DNA of 38,905 nucleotides from Earliella scabrosa (Eukaryota > Basidiomycota > Agaricomycetes > Polyporales > Polyporaceae): contig JABYQQ010000043.1 in the NCBI GenBank assembly GCA_022605405.1, forward strand, positions 1 to 38,905, written 5' to 3'. Below are positions 8,421 to 32,734 of the stretch, in pieces; within the stretch, counting starts at the first letter, position 1, and the number at the start of each line of letters is the position of its first letter. Under the pieces are notes generated by a model. The model worked only from the letters and a program-made list of their open reading frames with translations, did no database searches and had not been told where the DNA came from. The position numbers and the translations under genes were made by a program.

Positions 8421-8423
8421 TAT
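8421..8423. repeat. Target site duplication TAT, left copy
   Basis: TAT directly before the left terminus CACGGCGGGC. The matching TAT directly follows the right terminus at 32735-32737. Three-base duplications are the rule for CACTA-class transposons. Confidence 0.7.
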
Positions 8424-10390
8424 CACGGCGGGCAGCGCCCAGAAAACGGATGCGAGAAAAGTCAGGAATAAACCTCCACTAAGCCGACTTTTCTCGTACT
8501 TGTCCCGCGCTTTGTCGGCAGCTGAACAAGTGACAGGTTTCCGACGTTCTTCTGATGTTATCTGGTGACCAGACAGGCAGAGTTTGCAGCGACTTACGCA
8601 GGTGCGCGAAAGGTCTTGAACAGGCGACATGTTCGGGACATTTCTGCATCCGGAATACGGTCCCTGAAAGGTGACGACCATGAAAATTTCTTGTTACTAT
8701 TCTAATCATTGACAGAAGAACTTTCTCAGAGACAACCTCGAGCGGCAAGAAAGGACCGGAAAATATCAACTCCCTGTAAACGTGAAAGGCCGGCATAAAC
8801 AGCGAAAGAGGCGGTCCTTTCAGGTGCACGTAAGTGCCGGAATCCATTGACCTTCTTGCAGCCGGAATATCTCACTGAACAGGTCGCCTATTCCGGACAC
8901 CAAAAGCGTCGACTAGGTCACCTTTCCCCTCGGCGAAAAATAAGCCTCCTACGCCACACCCCGACGCGCCGCGCCACATCCCGACGCACCGCGCCACATC
9001 CCGACTCCTCACGCCGCTCCCCGACGCGTCGCACCGCACCCCGACGCGACACATAGCCCTTAAGAGCACCCCGATGCTCTGTATCTGTCCTCATAGCCCT
9101 CGTAGAGACTGCGACCGACGACGACGAGACACACAGCGCCGTCAGTCTCGATGCTCGGCACCACCCACGACGCATGACGCCTCATAAGCCACGACAGAGC
9201 TCTGCGCCCACAACAAGTCCGGGTCGACGCCTCAAAACCCGACAACGCCGACGGACGACTTGCAGACGACGCACGATGCGCTGCCCCTCTCGTTCGTGCC
9301 TCGGCGGCTACACCAGGTCTTCCCTCCCACACTCCGCCCTTAGTTCTGGCATTCGCTTGACAAATGTCGGGCAGAGCAGGTACGACGACCGCGCACTCCG
9401 TCGCTGCCATATGCGCTCACCTCTGCTCTCTCCTCAGCTTCCGCTCTTGCCGTCGCGCTCGTGCGCTGTTCGAGAGGGGTACGGCCCAACTTCGCGCAGT
9501 ATGGCGCAATGTTCGCGCCCGGGGACTGCTCGACGAGGACACCACGCCAGTCGTGCCGAGCAAGCACGACGACCGTGCGTTCCGTCGCCGCTGCGTTACG
9601 CACCTGCCTCCGCCCTCCCTACATGCTCCAGTCTCCGCTCCGCTGGCGCGCTCGTGCACAGTCCGAGAGTGGCACGGCACAATGGCATCGTATGGCGCGC
9701 TGCTCGCGCCCGGTGACGACACCACGCCAGTCGCGCCGAGCAGCTACCGTTCAGTCGCCGCCGCATTACGCACCTGCCTCCGCCCATTGCTCTCGCCTCC
9801 GCTCCGCTGGCGCGCCCGTGCGTAGTCCGAGTACAACGGCGCCCTATGACGCACCGCTCGGGCCCAGTGAGTTCATGACGAGGATGCCACGCTGGTCGCG
9901 CCGAGCAGCTACGACGGTCATGCGCCGCGTCGCCGCAATATGCAACCGCCCCCGCCCCCTGCAAAGCCCCTCTACTCTGCTGGCGCGCTCGTGCGCACTC
10001 CGCGAGTGGCACAGCACAACGGCGCCGTATGACGCATTGCCGACTGCGCGACGAGGACACCACGCCGCCCGCTGCGTCGCCGTCATACACACTCGCCCGC
10101 GCCTAGCACAGTCCAAGTACGCGAGCCGGGGCTCGTGATCGTCTCGTCCGGAGCCGATCGCATGGAACGATGTCGGGCGTAGCGTCTCCCCGCCGTTGTC
10201 CCGCTCATGAGAGGGCTCCGCTACCGCGCTCGTGCGTAGTCCCAGAGGCAACACTCAACGACGCCGTATGATGCACTCCTCTCGCCCGGCGACTTCACGA
10301 GGCCGGTCGCGCCGTCGTCCGCGATATGCAACCGCCTCCATGCCCTGCCCCCTCCTCAGCCTTCACTGCCCCATGTGCCGATTCGCTATC
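8424..10390 (+). repeat. Left terminal inverted repeat and subterminal repeat zone
   Basis: Inverted partner of 31110-32734. The outer part (8424-8930) is nearly identical to the right end and carries short repeated motifs such as GAACAGG, AGGTGAC/GTCACCT and CCGGAAT in both orientations. Next comes a roughly 20-bp tandem array (8945-9060), then about five diverged 160-240-bp units (roughly 9420-10390) that share the phrases GGCGCGCTCGTGC, GTGGCACGGCAC and GTCGCGCCGAGCAGCTAC. In plant CACTA elements subterminal repeats bind the element's own TnpA-like protein; the same use here is inference. Long open frames in this zone follow from GC-rich repetition and are not genes. Confidence 0.75.
8945..9060 (+). 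repeat. Tandem array of about 20-bp units (CCACATCCCGACGC-like)
   Basis: Five to six imperfect copies of a CGCGCCACATCCCGACGC-type unit. An inverted counterpart (GGCGTGTCGGGGTG-like units) lies at about 32110-32210 in the right terminal repeat, so the array is part of the element. Confidence 0.65.
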
Positions 10391-10544
10391 GTGCTTCAGG
10401 AGCGCACCCGTAAGTGTACATGAAATGATGTGTCATAGCAATATCATACAGTACTTGTCCATCGTGCCGGAGTCATTGGGTGCGTCAAAAACCCCCATCA
10501 GGAGGGAAAAAGCTACCAACGACCTGCGCACATTTGCCGACCCA

Positions 10545-12099
10545 TTACTCCCTAGCACGCGCACCCTCCAAGGTTGTCATGTGGCCGCGCAAGGTCTCGT
10601 TCAACCGGTTGGAGGTCTACCGGCTGTTAATACACATTCCAAGGCTACGATCATGGAACTCACCTCGGTAAGCCTGGCGCACTCGATCCAGATGACCTCG
10701 TATAGTTCGAAGGACTCACGAACATCGCCGACAGAAATCGGACCTCCTTGAGCCGAGGGCGTACTGAGCGTGCTGTGATTGACGTTTGCTACCTTCATGA
10801 TGGACTAACAGAATGTGAGCGAGCTCCTGACATTGTGTATAGTTCATATGCACACACCTTGAGATCGTCCACGAGAGTCATCTGCGTCGCGGTCTGCTCG
10901 GAGAGTTCGCGTAAGAGATCTTGGTACTTCGCAACCGCCGAGCACACTTCAGACGTCGGCAGGCGATTGCCCGGGCGATTGCCAGTGATCCACAAGTCAA
11001 GAGAATCCTCCCAGAGCGCGTTACTCTTTGTCAGCAGGTCTCCGCGGGACTCCGCAAGTTGTTGGAGAGAGCTGACCACGTCGTCCACACGACTGGGGAA
11101 GGTTTGTGACGTCCAGGCACGCCTTTCGTTGATAACTTGGTCGCACCCAAGGCGCCCTTCCTACACATACGATGAGCCATTACAACATGTAGCTGGCAAT
11201 CTGTAAGCACAATCAACATACCTCCGTTAGTAGAAGGTTGAAGCAGGGCCGCCATCGCGCAACCGTTGTCCTCATCGTTGCAGCTCGCCGACGGGCTTCC
11301 TCGCAAAGCCGCTCCAACTCCGAGTAGGCCTTCTGCATGGACTCCCGCTCGCTAGTCTCTAGAAGTAGTACATTGCTATCGTAGGACATTTTGAACTGAA
11401 GGATGTCAGTCGGTCAATTTGCGGTGGAACATCAGGATCACTGACCTGTTGCCAAAGCGTATGGTTTTCTCCAGATGAAGTGAACATCCCCAACACGACT
11501 GCGTCGAGACGTCCAGGGAGCTCATCTTCTCCAGGATACAGCTCGTCCAACATTGCACGTCGGTGAGTGACCTCTTGGATTGTGACAGTCGAGAGCGTGT
11601 CGAAACAACCCCTCGCACGCGATGAGAGTACGGGGGACCAGCGGGACATATCTGCTGGCAAGACAAGCTTGTCGCGCACACTGTTGAGTGGGATGAAATA
11701 GTGAGCGGGAGACAAAGACATGAGCCACTGAGGGACTACGCACTGGTCCAGCTCCTTGTTGAGCATGTTCACTATGTCTTCTATCATCTGAGGAAAGCCG
11801 CGTATCAGCGAGATGGCTGCAGGGACTTTAGGACCAGGGGCCATTCTGAAGTCAAAGTGGTAGGAGGTACAGAAAGCGTGCGTCGAGTCGAAGAGCGGAT
11901 GGGTGTGCCACCCGGCTCGACGGGCAAGTTGCGTGATCACGCCTGATGACGCACGGGCGCCCACACTGTGCTCACGCTCGACGACTGGTGAAAACTCAAT
12001 CAAATACATTGGAATACAGAAGAAAGCGCAGCCACAACTAGCCATACATACTCTAACAGGAAGAGCCGCGGTAAGTAAGTATATGGTCACAATGCGCAT
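10545..12099 (-). CDS. Coiled-coil protein of unknown function (transposon cargo)
   Basis: Five exons fit in phase: 12099-11446, 11395-11222, 11160-10858, 10804-10664 and 10616-10545, with introns of 47-61 bp. The start is uncertain. From 12099 the protein begins with a hydrophobic, signal-like stretch (MRIVTIYLLTAALPV), but an unnoticed intron near 12040 is possible. The central and C-terminal parts are helical with heptad-like charge patterns (AYSELERLCEEARRRAA, VSSLQQLAESRGDLL, YQDLLRELSEQTATQMTLVDD), ending in a short exon TSNRLNETLRGHMTTLEGA. I see no C-terminal membrane segment and do not recognise a family. The start lies only 12 bp beyond the stop of the SUN gene on the same strand, a very tight spacing for a fungus, which suggests the two moved together or that the true start is further in. 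Confidence 0.55.
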
Positions 12100-12111
12100 T
12101 ACAACTCACCA

Positions 12112-13359
12112 TCAGCGCGTCGCCTCCACGCCATGTACTCGTACGCGGTAAAGACGCGTCATAGCTCCCCCCCAGTTGCTCCTGACTTCGACGACAAGGA
12201 CACCAAAGAAGATGCGGGACCGAAGTACCGCCGCGTCGATGGGGAAGGTCTGGATATGAGACTCGGCCTTGATGTCGTACTCGAAGGCGGCGAGGGGAAG
12301 AAAGGTGCCGCCGGTTGTGACGGGAGGGCCGTCGCCCGTCGTGTTGAGAGGCGACATACTGAAACGATCGATCGAATCAGCGTAGCGTTGCTCGTTCTCC
12401 TTGCCGTCCAAACCTCCCCAAACAACAATTTGACGGGGAGCTTGAGTGATGGCGGTCGTGAGCTCACGGGGAAGATGGTCGATGGTGACATGAGTGGGGT
12501 AGATCTGACTGGACAGTTTGATGCCGACTTGACCACTTTCGCCTGAGAAGGACCAACACGACGCGGCGCGAAGGTCTTCATCCAGGATGTTTGAGGGGGG
12601 ACGAGCCTTCTCGATCTCGGACTTCGGGGGAGAAGTCAACTTGACGATGACCTTGGCCCCCTCGCCCGCCAGAGCGAAGTCAGGGAGACCAACAGGCCCT
12701 CTGAGAACATCCTTCATGGCCTCCTTGATCTCTTTTTGCACGTAAGAGGCGATGTGCGGGGGAACGGAAGCGGGACGACGTCGGGGAGCGATGCGCGAGA
12801 ATGTAAACTTCGGGCGAACATTGGACATGTCGACCAGGGTTCGCGACATGATGCCCGAGTCGTCGCGGACCGCTATGCCAATACACGCACCCATGATGAG
12901 GCCAAACAAGCTGAGAAGAACGACCAAGAGGGTCGACCAACTCCCAGCACTCCGTGGTTTGTTCTCCCTACGAGGATCCCCGCCATTGTCAGAGTCGCTG
13001 TGTGGGCTCCGCGATCGGACGCGCTTGACCTTCTTCCTGTCGTGCTTGGAGTCGAATCGAACGTTTCGATCTGATGGGCCGGTCAGTCAACGTTCAGGAG
13101 TCGAGTGGGACACTACTTGCCAGGTGGCAGAAAACGATCAGGGTCGTAAGGGTCCGACATGCCACAACGACAAGCTCGAGATGACTGCAAGTGTCGAGCG
13201 TTGAGAGGGATGAGGCACGGATCGACAATAAGGCGAGCCACTTACGTGCACGACTGGCGATGCAGATGAGGACAAGAGTCGGAACGGACAAGCGCCCTTG
13301 CGGACGTCCCGGGGAATGCCGACGGGGCGCACCAACGGGGCGCGTCCCCAAGACACCAT
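12112..13359 (-). CDS. SUN-domain inner nuclear membrane protein (transposon cargo)
   Basis: Three exons in phase: 13359-13246, 13184-13121 and 13070-12112; 378 residues. The second intron (13120-13071) has a GC donor. Layout is that of a SUN protein: a basic nucleoplasmic N-terminus (HDRKKVKRVRSRSP, about 69-82), one TM helix at about 106-127, a short perinuclear stalk including a helical stretch (YVQKEIKEAMKDVL), and a C-terminal SUN domain at about 195-375. Domain hallmarks are CWSFSGESGQVGIKL (from residue 231), PTHVTIDHLP, APRQIVVWG, EYDIKAESHIQTFP and the end VEVRSNWGGAMTRLYRVRVHG. SUN proteins sit in the inner nuclear membrane and bind KASH proteins of the outer membrane, linking chromatin to the cytoskeleton and acting in nuclear positioning, spindle-pole insertion, meiosis and karyogamy. 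The gene is complete with no visible damage. Its place inside a DNA transposon is unexpected. Confidence 0.88.
13071..13120 (-). other. GC-AG intron in SUN gene
   Basis: The donor is G|GCAAGT and the acceptor CCATCAG. The phase-1 junction joins LPP to DRNVRFD. No GT donor nearby keeps the frame. Confidence 0.6.
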
Positions 13360-13453
13360 TCAACAGGAGTCAATACATGCAGAGACCAGTACAGACAACG
13401 CTACACAAAGTTTTGTTTAGATACGCACACCAAAGTATCCACAAGATCCCAAT

Positions 13454-14324
13454 TCAGTCATCCTCCGACCTTTCCAACTTGAGTACAACGTGCTCAGGTT
13501 CTCCCGTGGAGAGCCCCTCGGTAACGACGCCGTCGTTGATCGCGCCAAGGAGCGACCTTCCGTTGATTGCGAGTCCTACCACGTTATGCGACAGGCGAGC
13601 CGGGGTGCTATATGGCGTCAGACGGGGGGCAGGAGGTGAGGGCTGGAAGCAGGAGACATCCGAGCCGGACGGCGCGCCGCTCGGAGATGACACTGTTGCG
13701 AGAGATGACGATGACGAGATTGACAACCACCATGGTCGCGAGGGTATACTTGACGAGCAGGAGGACGACGCCAACGATGCCGCGGATCCAGCATAGGAAC
13801 AATGCAGATCCGTCGTAGCAATCGCCCCAATCGCCGCTGAGGTCGTCTCCCGAAGCTGCCATAATGACATCCTCGAAGATAAACTCAAGCAGCGCGCAGA
13901 CGAACCAGAGGACTCCGAGGACGATGCGGCGGATGAACTTGTACACCGTAACGATGAAACCTTCGCGAACGTCGCAATGGCCGCAGGCACAGTAATAGTC
14001 GAAATCACCGAGGAGAAAGTCTATGATAGCGTCGAAGGCGCGCCTCGGGAGAGAATCCTCGTACTCCAAGACGCAGTTGCTGCCCTCGCTGCCGTCATCG
14101 TGGTTGTCATCGTCTTCGCCCTTGTCAGCGTTGTCAATATTGTGGATGCTGTCGGCGTTGTCGCGGGGGTCTTCGCGGCCACTCTCATCGATGACTTGGG
14201 CCGTCCGTGCGCCAGCTAGATTTACGGAACAACAGAATGAATATGGCGCAGACAAAAAGTCAGAATGTTGATTGGACGTACAGGAGGACGCGGACTTGCG
14301 CTCGTGCTCTATGGAAACAGACAT
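13454..14324 (-). CDS. Acidic multi-TM protein of unknown function (transposon cargo)
   Basis: Exon 1 (14324-14282, MSVSIEHERKSAS) joins in phase across a 66-bp intron to an exon starting at 14215. An acidic stretch (KGEDDDNHDDGSEG) is followed by FDAIIDFLLGDFDYYCACGHCD, two or three hydrophobic segments (VYKFIRRIVLGVLWFVCALLEFIF; CWIRGIVGVVLLLVKY) and acidic loops. This frame can run on to a stop at 13608. However, the region 13454-13660 reads well in another frame (NVVGLAINGRSLLGAINDG, ending KLERSEDD), so a last intron probably switches frame between about 13760 and 13650. I could not settle its borders; acceptors near 13690 or 13650 both work. No family recognised. It lies just upstream of the SUN gene, same strand. 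A role in a membrane, perhaps the nuclear envelope, is only suggested by context. Confidence 0.55.
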
Positions 14325-14659: not shown

Positions 14660-15691
14660 TTACCGCGCCTTCGGGTTGCGGAGCTGCTTGATACCCCATC
14701 CCGGAGATACCCATGAAGGCTGGTGCCTCGTCGGGGTGATGGTAAGCCGTCGCCCATCCTCCCTCACATCTCCCTCACGAGTCTTCTTCCAAAATCCAGA
14801 CCCGTCGGCCCCGACCGTCCAGATCCAAAGTTGGACCGTGATCTGCGGCAGGTCGAGTACAACATTGCTGTAAAGATCATCAACCTTCAAGTCGGGATAC
14901 GAGGTGAGGTCCGGAGGATGGTCGATCGGTTCGGATGAGAACGACTCCCAGAATGGGGTGCGGACGTGGGGGTCTATAGTAGACGTGGTTCTGTTGTCTT
15001 TGATGAAGAAGGGTTCGCCGTCCTGGGAGGAGATGTCAGAGAGCTGAGTATGCCGGATATCATGCAGAGAGGCGTACCATCTCCCCATATCGCGTGATGA
15101 GTTCCCCGTTAGGCTTCACGTATTCTGCAATGGTGGCCAGCGTAGCCTTCTTCCCAAGCTTCTTCAGAGGCGGCAGCGAACTCCGGGAGGTCGGCTGATT
15201 GACTCGCGCCGTGCCAGCTTGAGCTTGTGTAGAGCTGCGCGGAGTCGCGGAGGCTTTGGGGAAGGCACGCATCAAGGGAGAGGAAGGGAGGCTGGAGAGG
15301 GACGACTCCTCGGACGATGAGCTCTCGCCGGAGGGGGAGTGCGCCCTCGGAGTTACTGCTCGCTTCGAAGAGGGGCCAGGCGTGCTCGCACGAGACGCGG
15401 AGCCCTGCTGGTCCTTCATCCGCATTTCATGACGCTTGACCACTTGGGCTGGACGAATCAAACTACGGAGCAGTCAGTAATAAACTTGAAGAATGGAGTG
15501 CCAAAAACGTACGCGGCGGGCTGACTCTTGAAGCGTCGAGTCGCAGTGAGCGCTGCTCCTCTCACACGACGTGCTGGGGCCGGAGCAACACACTCGATAA
15601 ACGTGGGTGATCCCGTCTCGCACCGACGCGATGCAGTGAAGTAGTACAGTGGAGGATTGGAGGAGCGTAGTTTGGAGTGGGTGGGAGCCAT
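14660..15691 (-). CDS. Ser/Pro-rich protein with conserved-looking C-terminal domain (transposon cargo)
   Basis: Three exons in phase: 15691-15513, 15462-15078 and 15022-14660 (introns 50 and 55 bp), 308 residues starting MAPTHSKLRSSNPP. Residues about 60-150 are low-complexity, rich in Ser, Pro and basic residues (SPSGESSSSEESSLSSLPSS). From about residue 165 the composition becomes that of a folded domain: ATIAEYVKPNGELITRYGE, PFFIKDNRTT, DPHVRTPFWESFS, then VQLWIWTVGADGSGFWKK and a C-terminal HQPSWVSPGWGIKQLRNPK. Many Trp and Pro residues suggest a beta-rich fold. I do not recognise it. The start codon faces the start of the rightward gene at 16089 across about 400 bp, a divergent promoter arrangement. 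Confidence 0.65.
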
Positions 15692-16088
15692 CAGGACGAC
15701 GTGAGACGCGATCGAGTGCTGTCAGGCAGGCGGTGGAGGCGTTCGGTGGTGATGTTCCGACAACAAGGGTGGGTCACAATTTATGCAGACGAGGATTGAG
15801 GACATCGTCGCATTCATTCGAACTCGGGGAAAGGGAGTGAGCAAACGACACAAGCGCGATGCGGAGGCGGAGGGATGTTCGGCGAGCGCCGGAAAGACAT
15901 GTTTGCATCTGTTTACAAAGCTCCACCTCTAAGCTCTTAAGACCCCATTCTAAGTTGTTGGGCAACACAACGGTCGTAAGTCATCCACTGCTATTGCTTT
16001 TACTCAGGATGCTCAAAAATTGAACCAAACACCTTTGAAGGTTTGAAGTTTGACACCTCGGCAGTAAGTAGCTGTAAGCGCCTCGATC

Positions 16089-17101
16089 ATGTGGAGGCGC
16101 AGGGCCCAACAAAGGAAGACCGTGGAAGCCGCTGCCCTGCAATCAACAGGCCCACCAAAGGCTGAGCTTGCGCATTCGACTTCACTCTTTACTCTTACAC
16201 CGCTACTGGAAGCCTGCGACAGCTCGCGAGCTGACATCAAAGGAGGTCTACAAACACGAGCTGTAGTGGCACTCCGTAAGTGGCGCTGTTTTGCTCCGCT
16301 TCGCGCCGTTTAGGCTTGGCCTCGGTTCCCCGCCACTCGAGGTCAGTGCGCTCTCGTCTAACGGTGAAATCACAGAGCAACGTCACCGCGAAGCTCGCAG
16401 AAGTACCGCGCGTCATCATGGCGCATGCCGCACCCGTCAAATTGTTCTACACCGCACCCTGCGAGACTGTCTTCGCATTTGGCACTGACAGCGCGGAGGA
16501 CGACGACTACGCCCTCAAGCCAGTGCAGGTATTTCTAGTAGAGCTGATGGATCCAGTATCCCGTGAGTTGATCCGTATGCGCTTGGAGTAACGAGCTCAA
16601 CCATGTCTCTAGTGCTGCTGTGCACTGTAGTGGATAAGGGTGACGCCGTCACCTTTCGGTCGTTAGAGGTCACACATGAAGGAGTTTCGTCACTGCGCCA
16701 ACTAGTGAGGGCGTCCTCCCAAGCTAGGCAATGCATCATCTGACTCAAAGCTCCTACAGGCACCAACTATGCTGAGCATGCGGCTTCCTTACTTTGGTAT
16801 ATTTATCTCCTTCGAGATGCAAGAGATACTCGAAGAGTTCAAGACCGCCTTGAACGAATGGTTCGACGCCAAGGGGACGGTTGACCCGGCAGGACAGCCA
16901 GAACCCGGCACAAGGCCGACTGTCACAGGCCCTGCCATAGGCGGGGTGAGTGCGGTTACGGTTCTCGAGCATGTTCAATCTTTTGCCGCCATGGTAGAGG
17001 ATGCTAGGTCCCGAACGAACGCTAAGCTCATTTCGGGCACTCCAGAGTCACTCGAGGAATTATGTTCTTGGACGGAAGGGCAGATTGGGGCGGAACGGTG
17101 A
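16089..17101 (+). CDS. Hypothetical protein (transposon cargo)
   Basis: Four exons that keep phase, 16089-16275, 16347-16562, 16613-16704 and 16760-17101, give 278 residues. Introns are 71, 50 and 55 bp with good GTAAGT/GTGAGT donors. The N-terminus is basic (MWRRRAQQRKTVEAAA). The middle holds KLFYTAPCETVFAFGTD, an acidic EDDDYALKPVQ and VTFRSLEVTHEGVSSLRQL. The last exon starts with a hydrophobic piece (LPYFGIFISF), continues EMQEILEEFKTALNEWFD and ends in a helical acidic part (PESLEELCSWTEGQIGAER). A shorter start at 16418 would remove the first exon and the beginning of the second (192 residues). No family recognised and no clear TM helix. Confidence 0.5.
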
Positions 17102-17419: not shown

Positions 17420-19089
17420 TTACGCAAATTGATCGTCCCCAAATATGTCCTCAAGCTCTCCGTCCAGCCACTCAGCCATGCAGACCAGGTATACCACGAC
17501 CGACATCAAGACGAGCAAGCCCAAGAACAGCGCTATGCCTCCCAGCAGTCTGAGCGAAAGCTAAAAATGTGTTAGCATGGCAGCAGGTGGGGTATGTTGA
17601 GACACGTACCAGGGACGAAGTGCAACGACGAGCCAGCTTCTTGTCCTTGGCGCGGTCAGACGCCTCGGCGCTCCGCTTCGCCTTGACGGAGCCACCGGCA
17701 GTCATACAATAATAGGACAAGGACCGTCCTCGTTCATAATGCCCGCCGCTATGATGAATGTATCGTTCTCGCCATCATAGTGGCCCTGCAGAGTGGCAAG
17801 CAGTCAGGCTATGCGCTCAAATCTCGGAGACGATGGATGCTACTCACAGACAAGGCCAGGACTGTCTCATCGTCTACGAAAGCTGATTAGGCCGTACTGA
17901 TATCGGTAAAAAATGAACATACTTGGGATAGCCAACGAAGGCAGCTTTCGTTCCGACTCGACGAACCAGAGCATCAGGCGGCCATTGGTACTACCCCCCA
18001 CGATAGCAGTCCCGCCGTGAATGAAGGAGACCTGAACTGCACGCGTGTGTTCTCCATCGTCCTTCTGCTTGAACGTCCGGATAATCTCGCCCGCGTTCAA
18101 GTCATAGATCTGGAAGCCGACACCGAGGTTATACGCCGCAAGCAACCCCCGTTGGGGATAGACTGCTCGTGATGCTGCCGCGCAGCGGGCGGTTGTCAGT
18201 ACTAGGTGCGAGAGTGCGAGGTGATGGTCTCACATGGGTGCGTTGCTATCTATACTCCGAATGGATTGCCACGAGTCCCTGTCAAACAGTCTACGCGACA
18301 TCAGTTCGCGAGTATAACGTGGGCGCCATAGTCAGGTACTGCACTCACTTTATTCCGTGGTTCAGATATGCGACAACAAGACACGCAGGGGTCCAGTATA
18401 TCCCAGTGATCAGAACTTCCGATGTACCCTTGCCCTCATGGCCGGTCTCTGGGCCCGGCTGGGTTGAGTCTTCGGTATCTTTGCGCCCGTCCGTCCGCTC
18501 ACCGCCGCGCGTCTTGCCTTCATGTCGCTTACGAAGTTTATTCTGGCGTTTGGGGGTTCCCGGACCAGGGAGAGACCGGAACAGGCAGGACATGGAGGCT
18601 GAACAAGGTCGTAAATGCCTGGACTCCGCCACATCTAGAACAACACTCACGATCAATGTTCCAGTACCATATGGACAGCTCCTGTTGCGCTCCGGAAGCG
18701 ACCAGCTCTCCCGAGACAGCTAGGTGCTCAACCGGATAGAGATGTCCCCATAAGCCGCGCACGTGAGTAAACTCCTGTAGGCGCAAGATGAGCGAAAGGA
18801 CCGCCTATGAAACGTGCCACTCACCTCGCCTTTGATCATGGACGAGATGATGCCGTCGGCCAGTCCACAGACCAGTGCCTCGTTGTTGAACCAGGCCAGC
18901 GATGTGACTTTGGTCTTCGAGTTATACACGTCTGACAGTGACCAGGTCTTGGTATCCCAGACGCAAACTGTGCCGTCCAATCCGGCGGGTAGCGAAAAGG
19001 GAACCGTCGGGATTGAAGACCACCGCTGTGATGCCGCTGGAATGGCCGTCCATCAAGTGGGCTGTTTGTGTGTATCGAATCTCGGACAT
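17420..19089 (-). CDS. WD40-like protein with C-terminal membrane anchor, possibly decayed (transposon cargo)
   Basis: Starts MSEIRYTQTAHLMDGHSSGITAVVFNPDG, a WD40-type first blade, with further blade-like pieces: DGTVCVWDTKTWSLSDVY, KVTSLAWFNNEALVCGLADG, SGELVASGAQQELSIWYW, VLITGIYWTP, LFDRDSWQSIRSID, YNLGVGFQIYDLNAGEIIRTF and GTAIVGGSTNGRLMLWFVE. A basic linker (PKRQNKLRKRHEGK) lies between blades. The last exon encodes a TM helix (LLGGIALFLGLLVLMSVVVYLV) and a tail ending GDDQFA, so the propeller would be anchored with its N-terminus in the cytoplasm. About eight short exons are needed. One base too many near 18981-18990 separates FAT from LDGTVC, and a second frame break may lie near 17705. 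The gene is therefore either recently damaged or contains sequence errors. WD40 propellers are protein-binding scaffolds; the partner is unknown. Confidence 0.6.
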
Positions 19090-20044: not shown

Positions 20045-21450
20045 ATGGTCTGTACCCGCTCTCAATTCAAGAACGATGTGGAAGAAGTATGTTCCTCCCT
20101 GATAACTCCATGTCGTTGTGCTGATTGTGACAGGTCGCTGCCGCTACGCCACTACAAGTGAGTAGGTTGTGTGCTGACGACACCCAGCTACTGAATTGTT
20201 GCTTAGGAGACCAAAGTGCTTCTCACCTTGGCGGAACTGATCACTTTCGTTGAAGTTGCCCGCCTGAAAGCAGGGCATGGCGCCGCCGTTGACTACCTGA
20301 GCATCACACTCAAAGTACCGTCAATGGAGCAAGATATCGTCCAACGGTACCTGCCAGTGTGCCTTGCGCTCACCCCCAACGTCACGATCCTCGAGGTCTT
20401 CACGACGCCTCCCATGTCCCTCCCTTCCCTCTCTTCCGCGCCGCTCCCTCGTATCGAGGTGCTAAAGACAAACCTCCCTCACCGGACTCTATTCGCATTC
20501 GTTGCCAAACATCCCTCTCTACGCGCGTTGGACATCGAGGCCTGCGGACGCGCCCGCCAATGCGCTCTCTCTCCCATCGTCACCCAGGAGATAACCGACA
20601 TTCGCTGTCCCGCTGAGTGTGCTCCCCGACTTGTACATGAGCGCCTCGAGCGCCTCCGAATCGACCTTGCACGAGCAGTCAGCCCGGCATCAGCCGTCAT
20701 TACAAGTTTCCCCATCGCGCTGGACGCCCTCTACGTCCTTACCGTGGAGTTCACGGCTGACGACAAGAAGATCTTAGACGTCATCGCCACGAATCTGCCG
20801 GCGCTCCGCTACCTGAAGCTCGTCGAGAAGACTAAGCCCCTGGTACGTCAATGATATTGTTCCTGTACGGGAAATACCTTCTCAACTCCTTGCAGACTCA
20901 TAAGCACAAACCGCGGCCATGGACCAACCGTACCGCGTGGGCAACGTCGCTGAACAAGATGGTCAATCTTGAACGACTCCTCATACGCACCGCCGGATCC
21001 GTCGGGACGACGCCCGGCGACGTTGCGTCGGAGCGCGACATCTTTCATGGCTGGGTCAATCCCGCTGCCGGGCCTCCCCAGCCTACTCTCCATTACATCG
21101 GAGTCTGGCAGCGCGCAAAAGATCAGGATGGTGGGGTTCTGAGCGAATGGTCTCGCATGGATGGGAGTGGAGAGGTACATGGACCCCCGCTCCAGATCCA
21201 GACCGAGTGGCATTATTTTTGTAACATTGTGTATGGTACGATATTGGCAAAGCATTCTACTACTAGGATGTCCATCGCGCGCGACCGACGGGAGCGACGG
21301 AGCGATGGAACGGACAGCCGGCACGCAACCGACGGGCCTGGGAGCGCGCAAGCTGGCGCTCCGGGGCGCCAGCCACTCGGCGGCGCGGATCAGACACGGA
21401 CAAAGAGCCTTTGTCCGCTACCCACTTGCGCTCGACATTTGCGCATCGTC
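20045..21450 (+). CDS. LRR / F-box-like hypothetical protein (transposon cargo); 3' end uncertain
   Basis: Exons 20045-20086, 20134-20157, 20207-20842 and 20896 onward join in phase. The second is a 24-bp microexon (VAAATPLQ). The N-terminus MVCTRSQFKNDVEE leads into leucine-rich-repeat-like text: YLPVCLALTPNVTILEVF, PLPRIEVLKTNLP, FVAKHPSLRALDIEACG, ALDALYVLTVEF, IATNLPALRYLKLVE, then NKMVNLERLLIRTAG and TLHYIGVWQR. This is the style of the large F-box/LRR-like families of polypores, though no F-box is visible. The last exon stays open far beyond the recognisable part (past 21450), so either the protein ends by an intron near 21230-21275 that I could not fix, or it is fused to the following tail-anchored coiled-coil protein in the same frame. 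The end coordinate is nominal. Confidence 0.55.
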
Positions 21451-23157: not shown

Positions 23158-23445
23158 TATCCCCTCTGGGATTCCTTGTGAGCTCCGTTGTTGTTCCGTC
23201 AGCACTTCCATCAGTACTGTCGCCATACCCCGTGATGTACGTTTATAATACTGGGTTATCAATGCCACATGATCATTTGTACTCGCGTCATATAGGCGTA
23301 GCCATACGGTGTGATCGCAATGCACTCTTGACTCCCGCCCTCTCTCGCTCCTCAGTATCTTCGCTGACTACATAATATCCCATCTTCAGCCGCAGACCCA
23401 CGTCGCTGTTGAGGCTCGCGATGCCTATCTGCGAGTGCTCCCCAT

Positions 23446-26400
23446 GTGTCAAAACGTCCACATACGAAGACGGCGATGGAGTCATCCGCCCCTGGTTCCC
23501 GTTTATCAACATCCGACTACAAACTTCATCAGCTGGCCGAGAGGAAGCGTCAAGCTCGGGCAAAAGATCAAGAGCAACGAGTCGCCTCTGAGATCCTGTT
23601 CACCACTCTACGGCCGACGACATCGAACTCAATGCCCGTTCGCAAACCGTGACGTGCTGGATTCCGTCGTCGACAAACTGCCGTCGTCAGGCGCTGCGGC
23701 GATGTCTACAATCCCGTCCCAAGTAAGTCTTCGTCCTCCCTGCGATTATCTACTACACACTTTTCATGTGGCATCCAGGATGTAGTGGAGGCGGATCATA
23801 CAGAAGCTATCGTGGACTCATTTAGCCATCTCTCGTTGAAGGTCACCATTTTACCTCCTTGCCCAACATAGACCGACTGATACCTACACTAGGATGAGGC
23901 GCGAGCTCGTATCGTCGCCATGGGGAAGCTAGAGGCGCAGATCTATCGCCGATCCCTTCACGTACCACTGTCAACTAGGCTCGTCTTCGAATCAGCTCCC
24001 TCATCCGCCTCTGAGCCTCCGGGAGCGCTGGCGTCCGTGGCCCACAACTCTGCCTTCATTGACTTCCGTTCCTGGCTCGAACAGAGGAGAAAGAGGAGCT
24101 GCGCGCGACCATCCTGCCCCTTGGCCACAATGATGCCGACAACAGGCGCACGTCGAACATGAAGCGGCTTGACGTGCAGCTCGCTCGACTGGACAGGATA
24201 CTTGCGTGGTCATGGGATCAAGCAAAGGTACTCGCTCGAGTCCCAGGTTACTACGTGCTTCCGGACGATGAGAGACCAATCCTTATAACGCCTCGTTCGT
24301 CTTCCTTTCCTCACCTGCCCTATTGCTTGTATTCTAATTGTGCATTCACAGCTCCCGCGCTCGAGACACGTACCTCGATGGAGCCCGTTTGTTAGCATGC
24401 CTTATGATGGTGACGGTCCTCCACGCCATAGCAGCTATGTCTCGTCCCATCACCGCATATGTCCTCTCCACACTCAAGGTCGTCATCCTCGGCATGATCA
24501 TCGCGCAAGGTTCTGCGCCCACTCAAACACAACGCCTGCTCATGGAGAATCTCCCTAAGGACGTCCGTACCGCGATGAAGATGCTCCATCTCGTCCCCGA
24601 TATCGTCACCTATGCATGTTGTCGCGAATGTTTTGCCATATATGAAGCCGACTTCTCAAAGCCCCGCGACCCCTTCCCTCGCTTCTGCACCCACAAGAAG
24701 ACGCCTGCCGCGAAAGCTTGTAATGAGCCTCTCGTGTTCGAGAGGATTATTGGAGCGGTCTTGCCAGGCGATACGAGACATTCCCAATGGACGCCATTTC
24801 GCACGTACCCGTGTCGGAGTCTCAAGGCGTGGCTAGCCGAATTCCTCTTGCGCATTGGCATCGAGAAGTTCATCGCCGACTCAGGTGTAGAGCCGACGCG
24901 TACCGACGCGTGGACTGACATCATGCAGACACCCGGCATACGGGGCCTCATAGGCCCTGACGGCAAGACGTCGTTCTCGGTGCAGGTCGACGGCGAGTTG
25001 CATCTAGTGTTCAGCCTGTTCGTCGACTGTTCAACCCGCGGGGCAACAAGGCTGCGGGGAAGTCGCACAGCATAGGAGCCGTGTACCTGTGTTGCCTCAA
25101 CCTGCCTCCCCATCTCCGTTATCGCCCGGAGAACATCTTCTTGTTTGCGATCATTCCTGGACCCCACGAGCCCAATGTACACCAACTGAACCAACCTCCT
25201 CCGACCCCTCGTCGACGAGTGCTGCAGCTGTGGCACTCGGAATCCTCCTCCAGCGCACCGCAGAGCGCCCGGCGGACGCCTTGTGCGCGTTGCGGTAGTG
25301 CACTCATCTGCGATCTGCCCGCCCTGCGGAAGACGGCTGGCTTCGCTTCGTACTCTGCCGCTCATTTCTGCAGCTTCTGTCAGCTGCTCGAGAAGGACAT
25401 CAACACGTCGATCGATCCACATGGCCGCCGGGTTGCTCGTGGACAGAGCATCTCAAGCACGCGAACGCGTATCGCCAAGCACGCACGGGCAAGGAGCGGA
25501 AGAATGTGTTCGACGCCCACGGAATCCGATGGTCCGAGCTCCTCCGTCTACCATACTGGGACCCTACGCGGTATGCTCTTCTCGATGCCATGCATAATCT
25601 TTTCCTGGGCGAGCTCCGCCACCACTGCATCCGTATTTGGGGCTTGAAGACCGCGGAAAAGCGCGCTACACCGCAACGAACGGCAGTGCATACCCAAGAC
25701 CAGCAGGGAGAGCAACTCAGGACTGATTCACAGAGGTCTAGTTGCTGGTCACGAGAACGTCATGGCCCGCGCGAGGCGAGACTATCTGGTAGCCGTTGCA
25801 AAGTTTAACAACGTCGAGATACCTCCGAGCAAGAGCACGAAGGCTGGAATAGCCGCAGTCCTGCTTGAATGGGTGAGTCATCGCCATATCCGTCATGGGC
25901 GAAGCATTGAAAAAGCCGTGCGAGGAAGGTGAAGAAGGTTTCCTGGAGGAATAGGCGCGTTCAAACTGCCACCTACGCAGCCATATTCCATGGTCGAATT
26001 CCGCCTGCCTGGCGATGAGCCGGAGCCAGAAGACATCAGCGGGATCTTCACCTCTTCTGTGTTGAAGGAGCTACGCGCCGACATCTCTGCAATGTTCATT
26101 CCGTCCTGGCTTGAGAGGCCTCCCCGCACAATCGGAGAGCGAGCTCACGGCAACTGAAGGCTGACCACTGGAGGACCCTATGTACCGTACCTATGGTGAT
26201 GACGCTGGTGCGCCTTTGGGGTATACCCAACCGCTTCACATGAGAAGCTCTCGCCCTGGAGAACTACATGCATCTCGTTGCGGCCGTCGACCTCGCGACT
26301 CGACGCTCTATGTCTCCCGGAGCGCGCGAACGCCTTCAATTCCCACATGGAGGCATACGTACAAGGCCTGAGAACGCTATACGATGCCCAGCTTGTCCCT

Positions 26401-27322
26401 AACCATCACCTCTCTCTTCATCTCAGGGAATGCCTGCTGCTCTTCGGACCGACTATGGGTGGTGGGCCTTCCCTTCGAACGATACAATGGGCTACTTAAG
26501 AGGCTGAACACAAATCACAAATCCGGTGAGTCCGCTTCCTGAAAACCTTGCTTAAGTATTGATGATATTACAGCTGAGATGCCCGGAACATTCATTCGGT
26601 ATTTCTATATTGGCGCAACGTTACGTTGGATGATGGATAGTGCAAAGTGGCCAACGCTAACTGCGTACCAGGACATGCTACGCGCTTTCCGCGAAGCGTT
26701 CGAGAGCCATCGCAAGGGATCAAACACGACGGACATTCTCTCGTCGATCGTGAGCGAAGACGATCAGGACTCGTCGCGTCGTCGCAAGGCGGGAGTGCAT
26801 CGCACGTTGCCCCTGACACCTACGACAGTGTTCGCGCGCTCATCAACGCGACCGCATCGACGCCGTTTGGCTCCATCCACGAAGGACGCATAGGCGACTT
26901 GCGCTACCTCCCCGATTCGGCCGAATTCGTGCGAAGCGTCGATCACGACGGTGTCACCTACGCCACGTCCACAGGGGGTCGACGTAACTCCTTCATCCTC
27001 TTCACTGTCCCATCCAGCCAAGAGGTTGTCGCTGGCCAGATCTCTGAGATATTCTACCACACACGACGCATCGATGCCGAAACAAACTGTCGAGGAACCC
27101 TTCATCCTAGTACATCGGTTCAAGACGCTGTCCGAAGAGCACATCCCATTGGATCCATATCGGAAGTTCCCAGACGTCCCTTCCTGGCCTATGCTACAAC
27201 GAACTCTCACCTGAACAGGAAGTAGTGCGTCTGGCAGACGTGACTTGTCATTTTGCAGCGCTCATGTACGTTCCGGAGAGCATTGGGCGCGAGTGTGTGT
27301 GGTGCGGTCACTGGACAGGGTG
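23446..27322 (+). pseudogene. Tnp2-type (CACTA) transposase remnant
   Basis: Pieces of one long transposase appear in order but in shifting frames. They are an N-terminal part (MSKRPHTKTAMESS; KRLDVQLARLDRILAWSWDQ), a Cys-rich part (TYACCRECFAIY; HKKTPAAKACNEPLVFE), and DGELHLVFSLFVD, then after a one-base loss KAAGKSHSIGAVYLCCLNLP, ENIFLFAIIPGPHEPNVHQL, CDLPALRKTAGF and HFCSFCQLLEKDINTSIDPHG. Next come FDAHGIRWSELLRLPYWDP with YALLDAMHNLFLGELRHH, and finally FPFERYNGLLKRLNTNHKSG, MPGTFIRYFYIGATLRWMM and a C-terminal tail ending ECVWCGHWTG. PHEPN, CDLPA-RK-AG, DAMHNLFLG and FPFER-NG are typical of the Tnp2/CACTA transposase family. I count at least four indels (near 24085, 25029, 25220 and 25425, with more between 25690 and 26470). 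The enzyme is therefore very probably dead, though still well recognisable. Confidence 0.8.
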
Positions 27323-27738
27323 AGTCCCTAGTTCTCTGTGCTTGACACGTTGCGGGTTTCCTCGGTCGTGCTTATTGAGCGTTTCAGAGCTGAACATTAC
27401 GTCGGACCATCTCTGTAGTTACTGCATGATGTCATGCCGCTGGCGGATTCGATGTGATACGCTAAAAGCCTGAGCCTCTGGGTGTCTTCACGAAGTTCTT
27501 TCGGGAGCCCTTCGACGCGGTACGTACGTCTTCCATTGTGGTCTATTGCCAGTGCTCTAGCCTCTAGGAGCCGCTAGGTGTCGTCACATTCTTTTGGGAG
27601 CCCTTCGGCGCGGCCGTTTGTCTTCCATTGTGTTCGTTCCTTACTGAGTGGCGCGCCTGCTCAATGAGGCTTTGTATTGAATGTCTATAGAAGCGCAGGC
27701 AAGTCCCTCGCTAACTCTGCACTTCGTTTCCGCTCTTG
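27323..27738. other. Spacer between transposase and companion gene, with direct repeat
   Basis: No gene seen. Contains a duplicated block of about 70 bp (27473-27543 and 27567-27636) sharing GGGAGCCCTTCG and GTCTTCCATTGTG. It is the likely promoter region of the companion gene. Confidence 0.5.
27473..27636 (+). repeat. Two direct imperfect copies of a 70-bp block
   Basis: Copy 1 at about 27473-27543 and copy 2 at about 27567-27636, offset about 95 bp, share runs such as TTGGGAGCCCTTCGGCGCGG-like and TCTTCCATTGTG. Confidence 0.55.
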
Positions 27739-30700
27739 AATATGTCATCTACAGAACCACGCCCTCCGCCTCCAGAGCAACCTCCCGCCCTCACGCGTCC
27801 TCTCCCTCCGGAGCGAAGCCGAGTGGCCACCTTGAAGGTGGTCCGTCATCGCAGACCCCAGCGGAGACGCCTGCGGAAGCCTCTCACGGACAACCGCCTC
27901 CCAGCCACTCCGCCGAGGCACGAAGACCCCGCCGGTGGAGCTCCTTCAACTACTCCTCCTGAATCGCCCGCAGTTCAGGCGCTGTCGCGCGCCACTGGTT
28001 CTCCGGAGCAAGCCGCCCGTGGTCGCAAGCGTCGTAATCGTGCGCCGATCAACTTGAGAACGAGAAGTCCAGTCGGACAGAGGCCGTGTACGCCTATCGT
28101 GTGCTCCAGTTCTCCTCCACCAGCTGAGTCGCATTTAGCACTGGGCACCCCTCTCACTATCCCAGAGACCCCAAAAACCCGGAGAAAGGTCCGCTCCGCG
28201 ACGCATGGCAGAAAGGGCTGCAGCCGCGATGCAGCCGCGGCCAGCTGAAGAAGCTGTCCTTCAGACACTCCCCCGCGTCGGCTCTTCCTAACCTGCCGCC
28301 CACACCACGCGTCATCGGATCCCAACGCGTTCCGCAACCTCCCCCCGTTCAGCAGCAGCAGCTGGCTGACCATGTGCAGCCCTTGACGACTCGCCAGGGC
28401 GAGCAAAACAACAGCAAGGGGCCCCGCAGTACCCTCCCAACCCGCGCAACCTCTCGTGCAGCCTCTTCAGCACGCGCAGCTGCCCCTGCAGGCTCCCTTG
28501 ATTCATCTCCCTCAGGCGGCCTTGCAACACGCGCAGCTGGTCCAGTACTTGCCACAGATGCAGTACGTGAACCCCGCTCAGCCCATCGGACAGCCTGTGG
28601 CACCTATCCCGCAGATGCATCAGCCGAACCTGGACAATGTGAGCTCGAGTTGACAAGTTGTCGCGTCTATTCCGGCGCTGATCATGATTAGCAGCGTGCC
28701 CCTCAGCCTGGGTACCAATATGCGTATAACATGTTGCAGTACATGCAGCCAGAGCAAGCTCAGCAAGTTCCTCAGCCTCAAGCTGGCATCTCGGCACCAG
28801 TCGCTGCTGCTGCTGCCCCTCCAGCGACGCCTGGACGCTCTCCTCATGCACCCCGCCCCGGGAAGGCTCTCCAGAAGCCTTCGTCTCATCCGAAGACTCC
28901 GCGGTCGCGTGGGCACCCGTACAGCGGCGATCGCGACAAGCGCAATGCGGTCCGCTTCAACATCGCAAAGGTATGTCCCTCCGATACTGCTTCACCATAA
29001 GTCAAACACTGATACCCGGGCCTTGCCTGACATTGCAGCGGCTACTAGCGAAGAAGCAGACGAGGAAGAGACGCACGGTTGCCGACAACAACAACGACGA
29101 CGACGACGACGATCCCATGGATGCGGACGCCCGGGCCAGCGAGGACGACGCTGACATCGAGGACAGCTCTGATGAACGGGATTATGATGACGGCGAGCTT
29201 GACGACGACGACGACGACCTCAATCCAGACATCAGCGCCGAATTAGAAGACTTCATGGAGAATTATGTATGTATTCATCTAGCATTGCTATGACGCTATC
29301 ATTCAGCTAAAGGTCCTTCGCCAGCTCGGAAGTGGAACCGGGGACGAGGAGGGCGTTGGCAACGAGGAGGGGACCGGTGCCGGGGACGAGGACGAGGACG
29401 AGGAGGGCGTTAGGGCGACGGAGGACGACCCCGAGCGGCCTCCGCAGCCCGTCAATCTACGCACGATGTTCGAGCTGCCTAGTACCCAGCAGAAAAGGCC
29501 GGCGAACAAGAATGCTCGACGCGGTTTCGGGCAAGAACAACTCACATTCCATATCCTGGATCAAGTGAATGTGATGATGACGGAGAATCGTGCGTTTAAG
29601 TGAGTACCAGTCGTCATCGTCAATTCATCCGGAGCCTCCTGACCTGACTTGCATCAACAGTAAATTCGTGATTAAGCGTCTAGAGAAGCTCGAGAAGCGG
29701 TTGGCTGGCATGGAACAGGGAGCGGCCACTTCGACGACGGTGCCCCCCGTCCAGACCAAGAGACTTCGTGCCCCGAAGGCATCCCGCTCCAAGGCGTCCC
29801 GCATTGAGCTGCCTCCTTCCGAGGATGGCAAGCCGCGAACGCGCGCCGAGATCGAAGAGATGGCCGCCATCGAACTCTTGTACCTGAACCGCGCTGCAGT
29901 ACGCCTATCCTCGAGTGCTCAGATTATATGCCCACTGATGTACTTTCAGCGAGTCGTTCGTATCCATCTCAAGAAGCTCCTCGGTGCAAGGTCGTACCAG
30001 GAGATAGCTGCGAAATGTCCGCCGCTCACGGAGGACGAGATCAGCGCGTACAACAGGAGTCCCATCGATCAGGAGTACTTCTCGCCCAGCAAATTCCGTG
30101 TCGACTGCTCCCAGCCTTGGGCCACATTCCCTTACAATGTGGATGCTCGCGACTACTTCTTACGCCACCTGATCCACTGTCTCGAGGGCGGTGAATACAA
30201 ACGGGAAGACCTGCAATTCCCTGAGCGGTACTGGACGGTTTACCCACCTCGGCGCCGCATTGGACTCGCACATGGAACATGTTCGCGCTCGAGTGCGACA
30301 GATCCAGAACCCGTCTCCCGACTTTGATAGCGACGAGGATGCAAAGAAGAAGCGTGCGCGTGCGCGAAGGACCACAGTGCGTATCCATACCGATATTCTA
30401 CATCTATCACGATCTCACTATGTCCCTAGCTATACGAAGGCCGGGTAGCGGTCATCATTGACCACGGTTTCGACGAGCACGTCGACCTCATCAGCCGACT
30501 CAGCGCCGGGAACCTCAGCGAGGACGAGACTGACGCGGAGGGCTCCAAGCAGCGGTCTCGCGAGAACAAGTTCATCATTCATCGGGTCCTCTGGATGAGC
30601 GACGAACTGAGAAACCTCCTCCGCCGGCTCGACGAGATCCACATCGACGACTTCGAGAATCTGGTCTTGAAGAAACGTACGGGCGGTAGTGCTCCGCGCA

Positions 30701-30897
30701 AGCGGGACGAGGCGTATCCTATCAGGGCAGAGTTGGGGAACCCTGCCAAAGGTCTCTGGCGCAACTGCTACAACCCGCAATGGCTGGCGACGCTGAAGCC
30801 TCATGAATATCGCGCTCTCCGGATTATCGAAGAGGACTACGACTTCAGCCTCCCGGAAGAACAGCCGGAGTTCGTGGAGGGCAGCAGCCAAGGCTGA
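27739..30897 (+). CDS. Transposon companion protein: disordered N-terminus, acidic middle, conserved-looking C-terminus
   Basis: Begins MSSTEPRPPPPEQPPALTRP, Pro/Arg-rich, then Gln/Pro-rich (YMQPEQAQQVPQPQAG), basic (YSGDRDKRNAVRFNIAK) and highly acidic exons (NNNDDDDDDPMDADA; ERDYDDGELDDDDDDLN; GDEDEDEEGV). After KFVIKRLEKLEKRLAGMEQ, a coiled-coil start, comes a folded-looking part: IHLKKLLGARSYQEIAAKCP, EYFSPSKFRVDCSQPWATFP, VDARDYFLRHLIHCLEGGEY, LDSHMEHVRARVRQIQNPSP, GRVAVIIDHGFDEHVDLISR, WMSDELRNLLRRLDEIHID and the end PEEQPEFVEGSSQG. Clear introns lie at about 28970-29038, 29265-29306, 29599-29660 and 30380-30429. One frame conflict near 30240 and several in 27840-28450 suggest some decay or missed exons. 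It lies next to the transposase, facing the right terminus, as second genes of CACTA elements do (TnpA-like, subterminal-repeat binding), but that role is inferred from position only. Confidence 0.5.
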
Positions 30898-31109
30898 GAT
30901 CGCGCGTATGCACCCGTCGCCGCTGGTAGCTTTTTCCCCTCTACTCGGGAGGGTTTTTGACGCACCCAGCGGTCGTGGCAGCAGAGATTGTTACTTCGCC
31001 GGTACGAGAACATATTGTTGTATTCTGTACTATTCTCTATTCTACAGTGTTCGATGAGACAGAGACAGAGGAGCCGTGTCAGCGGAACCCACAGGGACGT
31101 CGGACATCG

Positions 31110-32734
31110 CAGCATGTGCCCCATTGCACAGTCAAGGAGCGAGTTGGCATTGAGCCGCGGCGGGAGGAGTGCGCGGTACGGCGCAGTTGTGTCGTGCCAC
31201 TCGCGGACTCGAACTGCGCACGAGCGCGCGGGCAGAGCGAAGACGGAGGAGGGGCTTCAATGCAGGGCGCGGAGGCGGTTGGCCACGCCCGGTCGTCGTA
31301 GCTGCTCGGCGCGACCGGCGTGGTGTCCTCGTCATGGACTCACCGGGCCCGAGCGGTGCGCGATGGGGCGCCGTTGTACCGCGCCTCACTCGGACTGCGC
31401 ACGGGCGCGCCAGCGGAGCGGAGGCGAGAGCATGTACGGGGGCGGAGGCAGGTGCGTAATGCGGCGGCGACAGATCGCACCATCGTTGTAGCTGCTTGGT
31501 GCGACCGGCGTGGTGTCGTCGTGCAGTCGCCGGGCCCGAGCAGCGCGCCATACGATGCCGTTGCGCCGTACCACTCTCCGACTGCGCATGAGCGCGCCAG
31601 CAGAAGGACAGAGTGCTTATGGCGGCGGCGCAGCACCCTGTCGTTGCTGGCAGATGCTCTGCGCAACCGACATGGTGTCCTAGAGGCTAGCCGTGCAGTT
31701 ACTCGCGAGGAGTGCGCCATGCCGCGCCGTTGTACCGTGCCACTCTCGGACTGCGCACGGGCGCGCTAGCGGAGGGGAGGTGGAGGCTGAGGCTGAGGCT
31801 CGACGAAGCATGTGTAGGGGCCCACCCACGGCAGTCGGCGAAGTGCGAGCAATAGGGGCGGCGCAGCGTGCGTCGTCTCCAAGTCGTCCGTCGGCGTTGT
31901 CGGGTGCTGGAGGCGTTCGGAGTTGTTGGGCGCAGAGCTCGGTCGTGGCTCGTGAGGCCTGAGACGCCATGCGTCGTGGGGGCGGCGCCGAGCATCCTTG
32001 AAGATCGTGCAGCCTCACGGCGCTGTGCGCCTCGTCGTCGTCGTCGGTCGCAGTCGTCTACGATCGCTGTGAGGAGGGAGCATCGGGGCGCTCATGATAG
32101 CTATGTGCGGCGTGGGGGTGCGGCGTGGAGGGTCGGGATGCCGCGCGACGCCTCGGGGTGCGGTGTGATGCGTCGGGGGGTGGCGCGGCGTGTCGGGGTG
32201 TGGCGTAGGAGACGTATTTTCCCTCTGCAGGAAAGGTGACCTATTTGTCGCTTTTCCGTATCCTGAATAGGGAACCTGTTCAGTAAGACATTCCGGCCGC
32301 CAAGAAGGTCAATGGATCCGGCACTTACGACGACCTGAAAAGCTCGCCTCTTTCGTTGTTTATGCCGGTCTTTCATGTACGCGGGAAATTGGTCTTTCCT
32401 GCTCCTTTTTTGCCGCTTGAGATTGTCTCTGAAAAAGTTCACCTATCAACGATCAGAATAGTACGAAGAAATTTTCATGGTCTGTCACCTTTCAGGGACC
32501 GTATTTCGGATGCAGAAATGTCCCGAACATGTCGCCTGTTCAGGACCTTTCGCGCACCTGCGTAAGTCGCTGCAAAGTCTGCCTGTCTGGTCACCAGATA
32601 ACATCAGAAGAACGTCGGAAACCTGTCACTTGTTCAGCTGCCGACAAAGCGCGGGACAAGGACGAGAAAAGTCGGCTTAGTGGAGGTTATTCCTGACTTT
32701 TCTCGCATCCGTTTTCTGGGCGCTGCCCGCCGTG
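31110..32734 (-). repeat. Right terminal inverted repeat and subterminal repeat zone
   Basis: Reverse-complement partner of the left end. The outermost 500-600 bp match the left copy closely. Further in follow the inverted 20-bp tandem array (about 32110-32210) and about four diverged subterminal units (31150-31780) with GCCACTCTCGGACTGCGCACGAGCG-like and GCTGCTCGGCGCGACCGGCGT-like phrases. Identity to the left copy falls visibly towards the interior. Confidence 0.75.

Follow-up and report, generated by a model that had tools for sequence, protein, structure and literature searches.

A giant CACTA element in Earliella scabrosa with a SUN-domain gene and a predicted KASH-like partner

A cut-and-paste transposon is generally expected to require hardly anything beyond its transposase. 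The question raised by an element of 24,311 bp in the polypore Earliella scabrosa is why it should hold about ten genes, one of them coding for a SUN-domain protein. The element, termed E here, occupies positions 8424..32734 of contig JABYQQ010000043.1 (contig C43), the whole of which (38,905 nucleotides) was analysed and is referred to as the window. The reading favoured here, with a probability of about 0.6, is that E belongs to the CACTA class, is of giant size and encodes two proteins, the SUN protein and one with a coiled coil (CC), which by prediction join up across the nuclear envelope. They would form a private SUN-KASH-like bridge, likely to connect the element, or the nucleus that holds it, with the moving machinery of the cell. 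The transposon, its lineage and the linkage of its genes are demonstrated by the sequences, whereas the bridge is inferred.

The element, its target and its copies

E starts with CAC and ends with GTG, and both ends lie in long inverted repeats, as they do in a relative, element F, described below. The first 48 bp (8424-8471) are the exact reverse complement of the last 48 (32687-32734). Beyond these the inverted arms match at 98% for the next 205 bp and then at 78% as far as approximately 9079/32078. Subterminal repeats are found at both ends, a 3-bp duplication is present, and a Tnp2-type DDE transposase is encoded (PF02992, 6.4e-16 in the copy on contig C2). These are the features of CACTA/EnSpm elements, and E is one. 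A first interpretation of this DNA, made from its letters alone (the sequence-only reading), had proposed a CACTA-class transposon with ends defined to the base, a TAT duplicated on both sides and eight or more genes other than the transposase, and all of this is borne out.

The insertion lies in a repeat of approximately 340 bp. Six copies of the repeat besides the window's own were compared, a further copy on contig C23 being left out. Four of the six read GCC-TAT-GGGG, with a single TAT, and because such intact target repeats exist the 3-bp duplication upon insertion is directly visible. A C23 copy is uninterrupted and has altered bases at the insertion site. The copy on contig C22 (C22:116372-116719) displays TACTATTAT where TAT is expected, with 6 extra bases, and these may be the footprint of an excised element.

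A search of the genome (51.7 Mb, 48 contigs) for the 16-bp terminus gives seven occurrences, two each on C43, C39 and C2 and one on C11, vs. none in a reversed control. Window positions 3422-37735 are duplicated at C39:110736-145048 with 99.7% identity across 34 kb. Since the flanks are duplicated as well, the window and C39 count as one insertion (copy A), and the two contigs are probably haplotigs or an assembly duplicate. In the C2 copy the left flank is new and ends with TCC, and the right one is the window's. On C11 the element is reversed and runs to the contig end; its flank, when turned round, starts with TCC. An independent insertion on C2 with its own two flanks was considered and rejected, because on its right side this copy shares the window's flank and the partner of the left flank is found on C11. 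The left part of C2 taken together with C11 is termed copy B. The C2 copy is a hybrid, which tracks copy B (C11) until approximately 28.4 kb of the window and copy A from there on, so that the C2 contig is either joined or recombined within E.

Away from gaps, copies A and B differ by 43 substitutions in 20.0 kb, 36 of them transitions and 27 at CpG; the 0.2% difference between these sequences suggests recent movement. Between window 8424-28436 and C2, CpG transitions dominate the differences (27/43), a pattern that might be expected from cytosine methylation. Aligned with C2, the window copy of the element shows 71 gap letters, of which 43 fall in 24.0-28.5 kb, and the transposase region of both the window and C39 has many single-base gaps relative to C2.

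Element F is found on contig C1 (C1:1417492-1441856). It is 24,365 bp long, begins with CACGGCGGGCAG, as E does, and ends with the reverse complement of this sequence. The F arms are 99.8% identical across 1.55 kb. A second F copy is situated on C22 (C22:86632-110996) and is identical to the C1 copy across the 3,963 bp compared. The flanks of the two F copies are crossed: the left flank on C1 ends with TCT and the right flank on C22 starts with TCT, and the left flank on C22 ends with AGT and the right flank on C1 starts with AGT. Together, E and F show four sites with perfect 3-bp duplications, of which TAT is seen directly and TCC, TCT and AGT only after the flanks are re-paired across contigs. 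The two checks suggested with the sequence-only reading, an empty site and further copies with different duplications, thus both come out in its favour, the former through the single TAT of four in six other target repeats and the latter through TAT vs. TCC, once the C2 and C11 flanks are paired. The swapped flanks (E at C2:1484333, C11:1640667 and C39:115736; F at both of its loci) reflect either assembly joins in near-identical 24-kb repeats or real chromosome exchange.

A lineage of giant elements with conserved genes

Splice models were made from the C2 copy with a simple home-made predictor, and exon borders are approximate. The C2 copy was used because six-frame Pfam scans of the window are hampered by introns and single-base gaps; these scans show the SUN domain and otherwise only a weak Transposase_21 match (0.024) and weak WD40-type matches.

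The transposase was taken for a remnant in the sequence-only reading. This does not hold for the family: a segment of 680 amino acids is open in C2, but the window and C39 have it in broken form, with 24 gap letters in the exons of the window sequence against C2. The C11 transposase is a 100% match to the C2 segment from residue 107, with the first 110 residues in a different frame. D/D/E-type segments, in which the residues assigned are presumably the catalytic ones, and a CxxC motif are present in the transposases of both E and F. No solved structure is matched by sequence with the transposase segment. The protein would act on the CAC...GTG ends in cut-and-paste movement, with P2, a second conserved protein, as a possible accessory. 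P2 has a predicted disordered front and helical core; its structure model, of low confidence (mean predicted local distance difference test score, pLDDT, of 40.6), yields no significant fold match.

The E and F sequences align collinearly from terminus to terminus, with 64-74% nucleotide identity in blocks of >450 bp and unaligned spacers between them, and the same genes are found in the same order. The ratio of nonsynonymous to synonymous substitution rates (dN/dS) is low in each gene, mostly 0.03-0.45 on the gene's own strand, but the values are rough: the synonymous rate (Ks) approaches saturation and low ratios also arise in some antisense frames, so that the ratio serves as support beside the conserved gene order. 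It is 0.03-0.15 in the transposase past the N-terminal exon (0.28 in that exon), 0.16 in SUN and 0.06-0.23 in gene 4; one P2 block gives 0.68.

Seven genes were sought genome-wide: the transposase, SUN, P2, gene 4, gene 7, gene 1 and CC. After exons and duplicates were merged, 57 transposase matches gave 36 loci, 28 SUN matches 23, 24 P2 matches 16, 17 gene 7 matches 14 and 26 gene 4 matches 21. Within 100 kb of a transposase match lie 22 of the 23 SUN loci (13 within 25 kb), all 16 P2 loci (10 within 25 kb), 13 of 14 gene 7 loci (11 within 25 kb) and all 21 gene 4 loci (15 within 25 kb); the chance per site is 0.132 for 100 kb and 0.035 for 25 kb. The sole SUN locus more than 100 kb from any transposase match, C12:1197985-1198512, lies in an open frame of 614 amino acids, shows 40% identity and may be the host cell's own gene.

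When matches <60 kb apart are joined, 14 clusters contain at least four of the seven genes. They span 17-72 kb and display at least two gene orders. The input consisted of 22 of the 36 transposase loci, 10 of 16 gene 1 matches, 20 of the 21 gene 4 loci, 5 of 10 CC matches and all merged SUN, P2 and gene 7 loci. The transposase, SUN, P2 and gene 4 are present in every cluster and gene 7 in 13. A decayed relative of E at C33:177420-181272 (SUN 89%, gene 1 85%, with stop codons) appears nested in a giant cluster at C33:154-227 kb.

Related proteins occur in other species. There are 24 SUN relatives, of which the 14 with a species name belong to Earliella, Lentinus, Daedaleopsis or Cerioporus. P2 relatives (three of three matches) come from Lentinus tigrinus, Daedaleopsis nitida and Trametes coccinea. 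One CC relative is found outside Earliella, in Lentinus brumalis, and in the P0024 protein of that species a SUN part is followed by a part similar to gene 1, as read by eye. In three other species SUN and P2 or CC proteins are seemingly on the same contig, a weak linkage given that two of these three contigs are 2-3 Mb long.

Two simpler accounts of these data can be weighed here. A chromosomal segment or segmental duplication lying between two separate repeat fragments would agree with the common flanks of C39 and the window, which are one locus. It is refuted by the other sites, which differ in flanks and in 3-bp duplications, by the empty target repeats, and by F, which is collinear and has the same termini, and is next to impossible. 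That E is a giant CACTA element in which SUN, WD40 and the other genes are captured host genes, freight with no role for the element, is a more reasonable proposal, since CACTA elements do capture genes and SUN and WD40 are host-type domains. However, F keeps the gene order with a low dN/dS in each gene, the same genes are found at 14 loci of varied divergence, and only one of the 23 SUN loci, with 40% identity, is away from transposase matches; the proposal is quite unlikely. Because order and low dN/dS are kept in F, and because SUN, P2, gene 4 and gene 7 turn up with the transposase time and again across the genome, the non-transposase genes look like the core set of a lineage of giant elements and not like accidental freight. 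Thus the word cargo, applied to them in the sequence-only reading, is apt for the many non-transposase genes but not in the sense of freight.

The SUN protein and its predicted partner

The SUN domain (PF07738) scores 5.2e-23 in the C2 copy and 2.8e-20 in the six-frame scan of the window. By prediction it is C-terminal and follows a membrane helix, and the protein resembles SUN1/SUN2 both by sequence and by predicted fold. Four residues of human SUN2, H628, S641, Y703 and Y707, are those that we take to line the KASH pocket. The positions aligned to H628 and Y707 are invariant in all 23 SUN sequences.

CC is predicted to have what characterizes KASH proteins, a C-terminal helix and a short tail with conserved last residues. 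In five of five E-like elements a hydrophobic stretch is followed by a tail of 13-29 residues, the last four of which are W-D-[S/D]-L. The endings are EYPLWDSL in E and F, and DYAWWDSL, EDPWWDSL and ASSIWDDL in three others, the tails of which diverge from those of E and F upstream of the tip. No W-D-x-L ending is found among 6,280 frame ends in the other loci compared. The ending is predicted to be a working tip; a partner of SUN could be expected to have such a free C-terminal end, under constraint and preceded by a membrane helix.

The predicted arrangement resembles that of the linker of nucleoskeleton and cytoskeleton (LINC) complex, formed by SUN1/SUN2 and KASH proteins, in its C-terminal SUN domain behind a membrane helix and in its coiled-coil protein, which has a helix at the C-terminus and a tip under constraint. 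Here, in contrast, the proteins are transposon-encoded, the tip is W-D-[S/D]-L vs. PPPX, and the pairing is a prediction. SUN would be placed in the inner and CC in the outer nuclear membrane, and their binding would form a bridge that spans the nuclear envelope and links the element or the nucleus to the moving machinery. The WD40-repeat protein, with its membrane helix, and the gene 3 protein are likely parts of the same membrane module. The benefit to the element would be better spread, through nuclear or chromosome movement in the dikaryon, or a protected position at the nuclear rim. A broader reading is offered tentatively: a polypore lineage of giant CACTA elements with its own SUN-KASH pair and helper membrane proteins could steer nuclei or chromosomes, a form of selfish nuclear mechanics.

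A number of observations weigh against such a bridge or against the evidence for its conservation. The SUN structure model is modest (mean pLDDT 62), the positions aligned to S641 and Y703 of SUN2 are changed, and some SUN sequences have a second hydrophobic stretch within the SUN domain. The CC helix is above the hydropathy threshold in four of the five elements, F giving 1.58 vs. 1.6. Animal KASH peptides end with PPPX; this type of ending is absent from the CC tails, and for that reason CC is termed KASH-like and not a member of the KASH family. CC is detected only in the five E-like elements and elsewhere is absent or too diverged despite the presence of SUN, and the Lentinus brumalis relative, P0026, has no helix as annotated. 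In copy A (the window and C39) the CC tail is cut by a stop codon and loses the tip, the frame being open in C2; copy A is thus partly decayed. SUN-CC binding is itself a prediction. To these are added the P2 block with the highest dN/dS value given above, the low antisense ratios, the very long shared contigs of the other species and some long distances between SUN and the transposase (85 kb on C6, 78 kb on C10, 89 kb on C12).

Several of these points also fit an explanation in which the membrane proteins act in the endoplasmic reticulum (ER) and not as a nuclear bridge, for example as SUN-like proteins that help to fold or protect other element products, or shift the element to the nuclear rim against silencing, with no link to the cytoskeleton. 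ER-type SUN proteins are known, the equivalents of S641 and Y703 are changed, and CC is not detected beyond the E-like branch. The SUN domain, however, is located at the extreme C-terminus behind a single N-terminal helix, and the C-terminal part of CC is a hydrophobic helix after which the final residues are under constraint. Both points speak against the ER or rim explanation, which appears rather doubtful.

Other features and relation to known systems

Coordinates of the features are collected in Table 1. An assignment of gene 7 to leucine-rich repeat proteins, made by eye, was rejected as it lacks Pfam support. Rfam and tRNA scans of the window give no match. In the left flank, where two frames were scanned by Pfam, a lysophospholipase (PLA2_B) gene is found from approximately 4300 (4.9e-55), and the contig start has a sub-threshold MFS_1 match. 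Pfam scans of four frames of the right flank (two minus frames being outside the scan) give no domain. A 60-bp stretch of this flank is repeated at 83% (34419-34478 vs. 38446-38505), and part of the flank has inverted relatives on C2.

Table 1. Features of element E and its target site (window coordinates)
Feature	Position	Strand	Description and basis
~340-bp target repeat	left part 8115..8423, right part 32735-32767	.	repeat copies compared
TAT target-site duplication, left copy	8421..8423	.	sequence reading
Left terminal inverted repeat	8424..9079	+	first 48 bp perfect, CACGGCGGGCAGCGCC...; arm ~650 bp
Left subterminal repeats	8952..10245	+	20-bp units, then units at ~165-240 bp spacing
Gene 1	10433..11844	-	340-380 amino acids in spliced models; no Pfam family; adjoins SUN
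SUN gene	12112..13070	-	one N-terminal membrane helix, C-terminal SUN domain (predicted); N-terminal exon approximate
Gene 3	13608..14324	-	209 amino acids in E model; two hydrophobic helices (E model), one (F model); no Pfam family
Gene 4	14663..15712	-	small protein; 86% amino acid identity to F, 123 codons; no Pfam match in frame scans
Gene 5	16418..17101	+	~190 amino acids; no Pfam family
WD40-repeat protein	17420..19089	-	C-terminal membrane helix (predicted); Pfam WD40 9.4e-15, spliced model
Gene 7	20045..21224	+	343 amino acids; no Pfam family
CC gene	21513..23181	+	coiled coil, C-terminal hydrophobic helix and tail; splice model, copy comparison
Tnp2-type (PF02992) transposase	23421..27331	+	N-terminal CxCxxC motif; Pfam, copy comparison
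P2, second conserved protein	27742..30897	+	14 gap letters in exons against C2
Right subterminal repeats	31170..32205	-	inverted relative to left set
Right terminal inverted repeat	32078..32734	-	arm ~650 bp
TAT target-site duplication, right copy	32735..32737	.	sequence reading

E shares with CACTA/EnSpm (CMC) elements the CAC...GTG ends, the 3-bp duplications, the Tnp2-type transposase with its D, D and E segments and CxxC, and the repeats below the ends. It differs in having about ten genes, where one or two are usual, and in the conserved SUN and several membrane-helix proteins. Starships are also giant fungal elements with many genes. However, they use a tyrosine recombinase captain, whereas a Tnp2-type transposase and long terminal inverted repeats are found here; no tyrosine-recombinase domain is seen in the six-frame Pfam scans of the window, which are weak for spliced or broken genes.

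Enlarged EnSpm elements of 16-20 kb with 4-5 open reading frames are described from the red alga Chondrus crispus (PMC6431247). These are likewise giant CACTA elements with multiple open reading frames, but they are algal, smaller and have fewer open reading frames, and the accessible portion of that account names no SUN or membrane module (PMC6431247). Fungal EnSpm, Plavaka and KDZ elements carry a TET/JBP dioxygenase, and some of them have CAC..GTG ends and 3-bp duplications (PMC12730594). As in E, a non-transposase gene is kept that likely serves the element; in contrast, the accessory gene there codes for a DNA demethylating enzyme, and a SUN gene is unmentioned in the available text (PMC12730594). 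Pfam scans of E show no TET/JBP match. No paper linking SUN genes to CACTA or other transposable elements was found in the open library searched (most subscription journals and, as a rule, preprints being outside its scope).

About ten genes are kept here by a member of a class in which one or two are the rule, and those that recur with the transposase include a nuclear-envelope protein family. The life cycle of the fungi in question depends on nuclear movement and pairing, and if the bridge is real, E would be the first DNA transposon to act on the link between nucleus and cytoskeleton, as far as the searches show. Even without the bridge, the lineage explains the surroundings of all but one of the 23 SUN loci, and the number of SUN genes counted in such fungi may mostly reflect transposons.

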